From positions 1 to 32,858 of the forward strand of contig JASHTL010000064.1 of NCBI GenBank assembly GCA_030040595.1: a stretch of 32,858 nucleotides of DNA, written 5' to 3'. Made by a program: the position numbers and the translations under genes. The stretch comes from Microcaldota archaeon. Lineage in GTDB: Archaea > Micrarchaeota > Micrarchaeia > Micrarchaeales > CABMGC01. A model generated the notes under the pieces. It did no database searches. It was not told the origin of the DNA and worked only from the letters and a program-made list of their open reading frames with translations. Below are positions 19,104 through 22,023 of this stretch, in pieces (the first letter of the stretch is position 1; each line of letters opens with the position of its first letter).

Positions 19104-19177
19104 TGGACTCGGCGGGATTCGAACCCGCGACCTCGCCGTTGCGAACGGCGCGCAAACTACCGCTGTGCTACGAGCCC
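19104..19177 (-). tRNA. tRNA-Ala, anticodon CGC, no intron
   Basis: RC: GGGCTCGTAGCACAGCGGTAGTTTGCGCGCCGTTCGCAACGGCGAGGTCGCGGGTTCGAATCCCGCCGAGTCCA; 7-bp acceptor stem with G3:U70, anticodon arm CGCCG-TTCGCAA-CGGCG, T-arm GCGGG-TTCGAAT-CCCGC. Confidence 0.95.
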
Positions 19178-20178
19178 TTTGGTAATAGTCTACCTGTCTT
19201 TATCCATTGGCCATACCTTTCTTTTATCAAAGGATGCGATGTACCTATATTGTACATCCATCTTCTTATATTCCTATTACCACGCAAAACTACGTCTCCC
19301 GAGTCTCGTTTATTTTGCCAATGAACATATGCTGGGAAATCTAAATTGTTTAGTAATTCTCCCATATCATAAAGGAACGACTTACTCCCACTAGATATTT
19401 TAAGTTCTAGATATTTGTAATCCTCGTCTTTTCTCGCGTATAGACAACCATCTGTATCAAGCAAACCACGCAACACTGACGCTTTAACATCTATTGGACT
19501 ATTGAATATCTGCTCTGTTATTCTCAATTTATTCTTCTTTTCACCTATGGGCATACCTAATGAATTAAAATAATCGAATATTAGTCTACTTTTTATCGGA
19601 ATGCCTATTACGTGTTCACTTGATCGTTTATAATAGTAACCCGATAAATTAAACCTCCTCTGTAAAATTGGTATTACATAATCTAGATAATAATGTAAAT
19701 CGTCGGTCATATTCCCAGTAAATAAGGTCTGATAGCACCAACGGTTTTCGTATGTAGAGAAAAATTTTGACAAGCATCCATCTCCCATGCAAATGCCTAC
19801 CAACTCCCATATTTGCGGATCCACCTGCGGTAAGTCCACTGTATGTCTAAAACTTCTAACGAATGCCATTCTTGAGTTTATCTGATTTTTATATTTCCTA
19901 TAAGATTCTAGACCTCCGAGGCGGTTTCCCCAATTGGAAGGATAGGTTTCTATGCCCTTTGAAACTTTTCTTTTAATATCTGGCGAAGATATGTCCAGAA
20001 GTTCATTAAAAACCTCTTCAGGTATAAGTCTAGTACCAGAACACCAATTCTTAACTGCAGAATAACCGTACCCTAATTTTTTACTTAGGTCTATTATAGA
20101 AATTTGATTATCTTGCAGAATATTGTCAAATAAGAGTGCTCGTGATTCATCATTAAGTCTTATTCTATCCCCACCCAT
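19168..20178 (-). CDS. Free-standing LAGLIDADG-type homing endonuclease-like protein with N-terminal HTH
   Basis: Two LAGLIDADG-type motifs: WELVGICMGDGCL and VLRGLLDTDGCLY; N-terminal HTH 'ISIIDLSKKLGYGYSAVKNWCSGTRLIP'; stop TAG overlaps tRNA positions 8-10. Confidence 0.88.
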   Translation of the reverse strand: MGGDRIRLNDESRALLFDNILQDNQISIIDLSKKLGYGYSAVKNWCSGTRLIPEEVFNELLDISSPDIKRKVSKGIETYPSNWGNRLGGLESYRKYKNQINSRMAFVRSFRHTVDLPQVDPQIWELVGICMGDGCLSKFFSTYENRWCYQTLFTGNMTDDLHYYLDYVIPILQRRFNLSGYYYKRSSEHVIGIPIKSRLIFDYFNSLGMPIGEKKNKLRITEQIFNSPIDVKASVLRGLLDTDGCLYARKDEDYKYLELKISSGSKSFLYDMGELLNNLDFPAYVHWQNKRDSGDVVLRGNRNIRRWMYNIGTSHPLIKERYGQWIKTGRLLPKGS

Positions 20179-20289
20179 TCAGATCCGATTATAATAAAAA
20201 CCTCAGATTATTTATACCATTGGACAGCGTGGCTGACAAAGATATCAAGCGTTATAAGCTTTACATTGGGAAGTAATATCGGTGCGCCA

Positions 20290-20622
20290 ATGGCAGTGCA
20301 ATATCTGGGGTACATACTGATCGGGCTGGGCATAGCGATAATACTGCTTGCCCTGGTCCTCGGATACGGGGTCTACATAAGCGCGAGCGGAAACATCAAC
20401 AGCGCTGCGCTTGCCAGTCCAAGCAGAAACAGCACGATCAACGGCTCAGTGAGCACGCTCGCCAGCAACCTTCAGAATACCGCTACCGTAGGAACGTACA
20501 CTGCAATAGAGATAGCAGTGCTCTTCCTGATAGCATCGATAGGGTACAAGCTTTCGTACCTCGGGCTGCAGATGAACGGCAGGCAGAGCACGCCGGGCAA
20601 GCAGGCCAAAATGAACGATTGA
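20290..20622 (+). CDS. Small membrane protein with two TM helices
   Basis: ATG 20290 MAVQYLGYILIGLGIAIILLALVLGYGVYI...; second TM IEIAVLFLIASIGYKLSYLG. Confidence 0.7.
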   Translation: MAVQYLGYILIGLGIAIILLALVLGYGVYISASGNINSAALASPSRNSTINGSVSTLASNLQNTATVGTYTAIEIAVLFLIASIGYKLSYLGLQMNGRQSTPGKQAKMND

Positions 20623-20643: not shown

Positions 20644-22023
20644 ATGGAAGTCAGGAAGATAAGAAAGGCTGAGCAGGTATTCGCGCGTGCGCTCTCCGAG
20701 GTAAAGCCAAGTGCCGTAGAGACTAACGCAACCATAGCGAGCATAAACACGGTAATGCACAGGCTCGGCAAGATCGTCGACAACGGCGTAGAGCTCAAGG
20801 TCGTCGGCTCCATAGCCAGGGGCACAAACCTCAAAGGCGATTCCGATGTGGACATATTCGTACTGTTCCACAAGAAAACCGACACGAAGGAGCTTGTGAA
20901 GAAGGGCCTGGCATACGGAAAAATCCTTGCAAGCGGCAAGCGCGACAGGTATGAGATAAAGTACGCGGAACATCCGTACATAAGGATCTACCTTGACGAG
21001 CTCGCGGTCAGGATAGACCTGGTGCCGGCGCTGAAGATAGACAGCATAGAGGAGATGGGCACCACAGTGGACAGGACGCCGATGCATGCTGATTTCATAA
21101 ACTCCAACCTAAGCGAGAAGCAGAGGGACGAGGCGCGCGTGCTCAAGTACCTGCTCAAGGAACACAACATATACGGTGCGGAGGTAAAGGTTGGCGGATT
21201 CCCCGGATACCTGTGCGAGATACTGATATACCAGTTCGGTTCGCTGCTCAGGCTTCTAGATAACGCGGCAATGTTCAGCCTTCCCGTCATACTCGACCCG
21301 AAAACGAAGAACAAGCTCAGCGACAAGTCCATTGCAAAGAGGTTCAGCTCCGATTTCGTGGTAATAGACCCTGTCGATCCTGACAGGAATGTCGCAGCCG
21401 GCGTATCTCAGGAATCGCTGGCGAGATTCGTGCTCCTGGCACGCCGCTTCGTCGCAGATCCGAGCATGAAATGCTTCTACGGGCAAGGTTTCTCCGACAC
21501 GTCTGCTAGGAACATGGTCGGCAGGTTCGTGAAAAGCTCCGGCCTGTCAGTGTATCTACTCTCCGCAAAGGTCCCTGATAAGAGCGAGGATGTGGTCTGG
21601 CCGCAGCTAAGGAAGGTTGCAAACATGGTTGCGGAACTGGCCTCGCGCTACGATTACGAAATCTACCTTACAATACCATGGATAGCGAACGGGTCAGGAA
21701 ACGTACTCTTTATAATGCCCGACTCAAGGGTCAGGGCCCGCATGCTTAAAGGCCCCGATGTCTTCATGCGCGACGCATCTAACAATTTCATAAAGACGCA
21801 CAAGGCCGCAATGGGCACGATTATCAGGGGATCATCCATCTACACCATAGAGAGGAACAGGTACCAGAGCATGGAGGACTTCCTGAGAGGAGTGCTCAAG
21901 AACGGAACGGTGGTAAGGCACAAGGACATAAATCTCAAGTCCGCTAAGCTCTACATCAATAAGATACCAAAGGAGCTCTCGGAGAGCGCCTATTCCGAGA
22001 TACTTAAGCGGATAACCCTGTAG
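20644..22023 (+). CDS. cca: CCA-adding enzyme (tRNA nucleotidyltransferase), archaeal class I
   Basis: VVGSIARGTNLKGDSDVDIFVLF nucleotidyltransferase motif; EIKYAEHPYIR; GGFPGYLCEILI. Confidence 0.96.
   Translation: MEVRKIRKAEQVFARALSEVKPSAVETNATIASINTVMHRLGKIVDNGVELKVVGSIARGTNLKGDSDVDIFVLFHKKTDTKELVKKGLAYGKILASGKRDRYEIKYAEHPYIRIYLDELAVRIDLVPALKIDSIEEMGTTVDRTPMHADFINSNLSEKQRDEARVLKYLLKEHNIYGAEVKVGGFPGYLCEILIYQFGSLLRLLDNAAMFSLPVILDPKTKNKLSDKSIAKRFSSDFVVIDPVDPDRNVAAGVSQESLARFVLLARRFVADPSMKCFYGQGFSDTSARNMVGRFVKSSGLSVYLLSAKVPDKSEDVVWPQLRKVANMVAELASRYDYEIYLTIPWIANGSGNVLFIMPDSRVRARMLKGPDVFMRDASNNFIKTHKAAMGTIIRGSSIYTIERNRYQSMEDFLRGVLKNGTVVRHKDINLKSAKLYINKIPKELSESAYSEILKRITL

Follow-up and report, generated by a model that had tools for sequence, protein, structure and literature searches.

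Genes of tRNAs are known landing sites of integrases. The ends of such genes constitute the typical att sites used by archaeal integrating elements (PMC3293823), and disrupted tRNA genes have been regarded by Randau and Soll as a guard against mobile elements, in the form in which this idea is cited in PMC3293823 and PMC4390854. Among free-standing homing endonuclease genes (HEGs), SegB of T-even phages homes in a tRNA region, it has been argued that an endonuclease gene is more readily retained when a promoter is embedded in it, and the free-standing enzymes of T4 cleave at a distance of hundreds to thousands of bp from their own gene (PMC2988022). In the window, i.e. the whole stretch of 32,858 nucleotides of micrarchaeal DNA analysed here, a LAGLIDADG reading frame abuts and overlaps a tRNA gene. 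Micrarchaeota are small archaea that are known mostly from environmental DNA; named relatives fall in this phylum, and the same-family searches are consistent with that placement. We consider it probable that this ORF is a free-standing LAGLIDADG homing endonuclease gene belonging to a group with tRNA-specialised subfamilies, which would home into the 5' boundary of a tRNA gene, leave behind a resistant recoded tRNA allele and take over the tRNA promoter.

The ORF encodes 336 amino acids (19168-20178, minus strand), starts with ATG and has a 3' end that reads ...CTA TTA CCA AAG GGC TCG TAG. The closing codons GGC TCG TAG are bases of an intact, intronless tRNA-Ala(CGC) gene (19104-19177, minus strand), on which the ARAGORN and Rfam calls agree (Rfam 58 bits, E 3e-10) and which has a normal cloverleaf fold, carries the G3:U70 identity pair and is the sole match to itself in the 949-kb metagenome-assembled genome. 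The overlap of ORF and tRNA spans exactly 10 nt (19168-19177, minus strand), wherein tRNA bases 1-10 supply the HEG codons Gly-Ser-stop, with TAG corresponding to bases 8-10. A preliminary description of this locus had proposed a stop codon supplied on the same strand by an intronless tRNA gene through a 10-nt overlap, and all of this is borne out. The overlap is not a chance event, because an overlap of exactly 10 nt recurs in 15 loci and HEG and tRNA overlap in 46 of the 68 scored pairs, and an assembly artefact is ruled out by the same arrangement in many independent genomes. At most Ala(CGC) loci the HEG stop corresponds to tRNA bases 8-10, with other frames ending at base 15-23, and at Arg(CCT)-type loci the HEG is likewise closed by tRNA bases, with GGGCTCGTAG or GGGCCCGTAA. 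Two neighbours serve as synteny anchors, namely a small conserved ORF (cluster c7; 20266-20622, plus strand) and, with this ORF between it and the insertion, the gene of the CCA-adding tRNA nucleotidyltransferase (20644-22023, plus strand), which is kept at the locus with or without the HEG. Family-wide (loci L050-L089), tRNA-Ala(CGC) is accompanied by this gene as a conserved divergent neighbour, apparently with a common intergenic promoter region.

The encoded protein is classified as a LAGLIDADG homing endonuclease by its motifs, catalytic acidic residues and predicted fold, with cleavage itself being putative. Residues 230-311 match Pfam LAGLIDADG_3 (PF14528) above the cut-off (E 6e-8), and this region includes the second motif LRGLLDTDGCL (19441-19473, minus strand) with the catalytic Asp243 in an invariant RGLLDTDG. 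The first LAGLIDADG-type motif LVGICMGDGCL (19771-19803, minus strand) carries the catalytic Asp133 in a G132-D133-G134 triplet, is placed by the fold match to I-DmoI and I-Tsp061I and, like D243, has its aspartate invariant across the 7 aligned homologues. The two motifs recognised in the preliminary description are hence supported by Pfam, invariant residues and predicted fold. An AF2 model (pLDDT 80.6) predicts a monomeric two-repeat alpha-beta LAGLIDADG fold, for which Foldseek returns I-Tsp061I (E 2e-10), I-DmoI (E 3e-9) and also PI-PfuI, with TMt values of 0.76 versus 2dch and 0.71-0.78 versus I-DmoI, and a sequence search of solved structures gave weak intein matches only (E 0.009-0.01). 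At the N-terminus, residues ~10-75 (19954-20151, minus strand) resemble a helix-turn-helix, as judged from the alignment, helices in the AF2 model and matches to Pfam HTH_26/HTH_3 that fall below the cut-off (E 0.03-0.15). The Ala-type HEGs of two other genomes, G012 (L005/L051) and G075 (L006/L060), are shorter and lack this region.

Following a profile search of 301 Micrarchaeota genomes, 94 distinct free-standing loci were analysed, and with 3 of them truncated by contig ends, 91 were informative. As many as 76 of these 91 homologues abut a tRNA, while about 0.6 would be expected by chance, 10 are contained in or adjoin rRNA sequence and 5 are near neither, in a tally compiled by hand with the rRNA and multi-intron tRNA assignments made by eye. 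Homologues thus reside mostly at tRNA genes and not away from them. On the same strand (62 loci), the tRNA starts from 119 nt before to 142 nt after the HEG stop; on the opposite strand (6 loci), the tRNA 3' end meets the HEG; and a multi-intron tRNA, assigned by eye, lies beside the HEG in 8 loci. The picture is wider than that of the preliminary description in that some HEGs adjoin the tRNA 3' edge from the opposite strand and many isotypes are targeted, namely Ala, Gln, Phe, Thr, Ile, Gly, Val, Pro, Leu, Asn, Ser, Met, Arg, Glu, His, Trp and Asp. HEG and tRNA are opposite in strand, with their 3' ends meeting or overlapping, at L106, L109, L113, L121, L122, L124, L134 and L166, and it is the 3' end of the HEG that touches the tRNA whatever the orientation. 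At L120 (2198-2418), a HEG upstream of a tRNA-Phe-like gene immediately follows the gene of RNase P RNA. The free-standing ORFs encode 240-360 aa and have no splicing domains; relatives within long reading frames, which are probably inteins, also match the profile and have no tRNA nearby. Viral contigs contained no HEG relative in a single-sequence search and gave only partial 26-34% matches in the profile search, at loci without tRNA, and a viral carrier of the HEG is accordingly unsupported.

HEG clades track the tRNA isotype across host families. In a tree of 83 catalytic domains, isotype labels require 27 changes, as compared to 43.5 +/- 1.5 (minimum 39) upon 1000 shuffles, and the Ala(CGC), Thr, Phe and Gln clades each span more than one host family. 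Within the window's family, a single-sequence search found the HEG in 13 of 79 genomes and in none of the 9 same-genus relatives, and the relatives retrieved by this search together with a contig scan are nearly all directly upstream of tRNAs. Recent homing is not directly visible, because the Ala(CGC) HEG proteins are only 32-53% identical to that of the window. Frameshifted and deleted HEG copies are present beside intact tRNAs in G046 and G020, and such remnants show that loss is under way. This distribution bears on the explanation that the protein is not a selfish element but a domesticated host factor, which might for instance regulate the adjacent tRNA or serve as its RNA-binding maturase. 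Some LAGLIDADG proteins function as maturases, and this activity, the constant tight linkage to tRNAs and the helix-turn-helix-like region would suit such a role, but the presence of the gene in a minority of genomes, its decayed copies beside intact tRNAs, the normal tRNA kept in HEG-less relatives, the invariance of both catalytic aspartates and the absence of any intron to splice from the window tRNA make a host factor improbable.

Empty sites with intact flanks were found for three tRNAs (Ala, Thr and Phe) in several genera. At tRNA-Ala(CGC), alleles without the HEG occur in close relatives, and these same-genus and same-family alleles with their mapped boundaries support the earlier proposal of a homing element at the tRNA 5' edge. 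The window was compared with five same-genus empty genomes, of which three have a particularly close flank (L055, L058 and L053). In these three the upstream flank broke at -22/-23, which places the left junction, the end of upstream homology with the empty alleles, at 20246/20247 (minus strand); homology is regained at tRNA +1 or a few bases from it and runs on downstream to +123. For other Ala(CGC) loci, the flank breaks at -7 between G012 and G011 of the same genus and at -15 to -18 between G046 and four same-genus genomes, and in all Ala pairs homology resumes at tRNA +1 or within ~10 nt. In the case of Thr(CGT), the promoter and the entire leader align between G036 and G043, with the insertion at position 0, and for Phe(GAA), comparison of G021 and G020 with four same-genus genomes reveals a break at ~-55, with a TATA box at the HEG 3' end.

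The same boundaries weigh on two explanations by known types of insertion. A classical archaeal intron-encoded endonuclease in an unrecognised tRNA intron, or in a split or permuted tRNA, might be envisaged given that the nearest folds are those of archaeal rRNA-intron endonucleases, that some homologues reside in rRNA and that many Micrarchaeota tRNAs carry introns. However, the HEG is followed by an entire tRNA with its 5' acceptor strand, and the left junction falls within leader or promoter sequence with no tRNA piece upstream. This explanation is very unlikely and already conflicts with the data on the Ala, Thr and Phe types, the HEG not being flanked by two tRNA exons. The HEG is instead free-standing, lying outside intron and intein, followed by a complete tRNA and without a splicing domain. 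An equally small probability is assigned to HEG and tRNA moving together as an element that integrates in the manner of tyrosine integrases (att), for which the exact reconstitution of the tRNA at the boundary and the common use of tRNA ends as att sites (PMC3293823) could be taken as signs. Against it, the family has an endonuclease and not an integrase fold and the insert is close in length to the HEG. At the window locus, with the genome checked for tRNA matches, the insert consists of one ORF with no integrase and no duplicated tRNA att segment, the window tRNA having a single match in the genome, and the comparison of empty and occupied Ala sites revealed no second tRNA fragment at the far end. 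Integration of the att type was rejected on the lack of an integrase gene and of a duplicated tRNA att segment.

Insertion at this position affects the promoter. Alignment with L055, L058 and L053 shows that the TATA element AAAGCTTATAACG (20250-20262, minus strand), which immediately precedes the tRNA in empty alleles, is directed at the HEG in the window. Since the HEG sits between TATA box and tRNA in the Ala and Thr types, the tRNA promoter therefore now faces the HEG, and the capture of this promoter that had been suggested from the window alone is supported by the empty-allele alignment. Two TATA-like boxes noted previously are both real, and only their positions needed a correction by 1 base: a strong box TATAAATAA (TATAAATA; 8.5 bits) at 20208-20216 (minus strand) inside the insert, 38 nt before the HEG ATG, and a weak box GGATAAAG (4.3 bits, with empty alleles averaging 5.2) at 19198-19205 (minus strand) within the HEG coding region, ~25 nt before the tRNA. 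Using a matrix trained on 71 HEG-less alleles with leave-one-out scoring, the mean TATA score near the tRNA was 5.2 bits in HEG-less alleles, 2.5 in nine HEG-bearing alleles (p=8e-4) and 0.0 for coding DNA of HEGs taken at random, which suggests, in keeping with the preliminary description, that tRNAs of HEG-bearing alleles have no strong promoter of their own. Box GGATAAAG is weak but well placed, and residual initiation of the window tRNA from it is therefore possible. Promoter capture is not universal, because the Phe-type HEG lies upstream of a retained tRNA promoter, whose TATA box is kept next to the tRNA.

Besides the promoter, the occupied tRNA itself is altered. The D-arm of the window tRNA-Ala(CGC) (19151-19168, minus strand) is recoded to GCAC...TTTGC, as compared to GCGC...GCGC or GCTC...GAGC in HEG-less relatives. 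A D-arm-agnostic pattern was applied to 164 genomes, with a 5' D-stem strand other than GCGC/GCTC taken as recoded; HEG-less alleles picked by tRNA similarity had been a biased sample, and use of this pattern weakened the association in the second family. Across both families, the Ala D-stem is recoded in 8/10 HEG-bearing versus 16/88 HEG-less alleles (stratified permutation 5e-6, related genomes not being independent). In the window's family (f1), it is recoded in 5 of 6 alleles with an intact or decayed HEG and in 1 of 36 without (p=4e-5), whereas the association is weak in the sister family (3/4 versus 15/52, p=0.09). The lone recoded HEG-less allele of the window's family, in G038, has a tRNA almost the same as that found beside the decaying HEG of G046, as though a HEG had disappeared from G038 and the tRNA had stayed behind, while G075 is the one exception of an intact HEG-bearing allele with a canonical D-stem. 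Compensatory changes maintain the stem in Phe HEG-bearing alleles (GTTC/GAAC instead of GCTC/GAGC) and in one Thr HEG-bearing allele (GCTT/AAGC instead of GCTC/GAGC). The recoded D-stems are as expected if the enzyme recognises the 5' half of the tRNA and the allele of its carriers is resistant. Alternatively, this pattern might stem from a divergent tRNA having been transferred together with the HEG. In f4, HEG-associated tRNAs with D-arm introns were noted at L107, L110, L112 and L160 (Arg(CCT)) and at L119, L126 and L132, and these introns fall in the region that is recoded elsewhere. For Arg(CCT), such an intron is present in 4/4 HEG-bearing alleles and, of the HEG-less ones, in L267 and not in L273 and L274, numbers too few for a claim.

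The D-stem variants without HEG in the second family and the canonical D-stem of G075 could also reflect a neutral landing spot, at which HEGs that cut elsewhere persist where they do no harm, with the D-stem changes due to relaxed constraint or tRNA replacement. Yet the HEG clades are isotype-specific, the compensatory changes keep the stems, and the insertion is not obviously harmless because the tRNA promoter is removed, and we hold this explanation to be distinctly improbable, although not to the extent of an intron or att origin. Intronless homing into tRNA gene boundaries, as first surmised from the window, thus appears most likely given tRNA adjacency, the weak tRNA promoter and the empty sites. 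The enzyme would recognise and cut the 5' part of an unoccupied tRNA-Ala(CGC), presumably the 5' acceptor strand and the D-arm, and repair from the HEG-bearing copy, with homology arms formed by the upstream flank on one side and by the tRNA plus downstream flank on the other, would insert the HEG at the tRNA 5' boundary and convert the tRNA to the D-stem-recoded, putatively resistant allele. The HEG would take over the tRNA promoter, because it would replace the short leader, and the tRNA would then be made from the HEG transcript or from the weak promoter within the HEG, with RNase P presumably trimming it. An RNase P RNA gene is present in the window's genome (112 bits). An insertion of this kind would be hard to lose without harming an essential tRNA, and if the mechanism holds, a selfish gene makes an essential gene dependent on it by promoter theft. 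The mechanism would then also account for the odd D-stems in some archaeal tRNAs, suggest why archaeal tRNA genes are disrupted in a way that can be tested, and possibly provide enzymes of which each is specific for a single tRNA isoacceptor.

More tentatively, and with the balance somewhat against it, a radiation of isotype-specific HEGs may drive the evolution of Micrarchaeota tRNAs, with compensatory D-stem recoding and possibly the non-canonical D-arm introns of archaeal tRNAs as resistance, and with occupied tRNAs forming the 3' tails of HEG messages from which RNase P would release them. If true, this would provide the idea of Randau and Soll with a concrete culprit.

The open-access papers searched yielded no report of tRNA-abutting archaeal LAGLIDADG genes, nor of any chromosomal family of endonucleases that specialises on the boundaries of tRNA genes. 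The arrangement points to a previously undescribed intronless parasitism of essential genes, in which, in several cases, a HEG separates a tRNA from its promoter and uses tRNA bases as its own 3' end, stop codon included. With the archaeal rRNA-intron enzymes I-DmoI and I-Tsp061I the family shares the predicted catalytic fold, and rRNA-associated copies are found among the homologues, but here there is no intron, the targets are tRNAs, and full-length Ala-type proteins add the N-terminal helix-turn-helix-like region. PI-PfuI and the Tli VMA intein have the same fold and distant sequence similarity to the window HEG, whereas the Micrarchaeota proteins are free-standing, of 240-360 aa and without splicing domains. 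SSV/pNOB8-type elements and the Caldiarchaeum tRNA-Thr insertion likewise land at a tRNA boundary with the tRNA reconstituted (PMC3293823), in contrast to which the present inserts are of a single ORF, without integrase and att duplication. SegB and other T-even free-standing HEGs resemble the Micrarchaeota family in being single selfish genes outside introns and inteins and beside tRNA genes, and a further likeness would lie in the co-conversion of flanking markers and in host promoters, embedded or captured, by which loss is made less likely (PMC2988022). SegB differs as a GIY-YIG enzyme of a phage tRNA cluster that cuts a tRNA intergenic region, whereas the Micrarchaeota family is of the LAGLIDADG type, chromosomal and archaeal, with a gene that abuts and overlaps its putative target tRNA.
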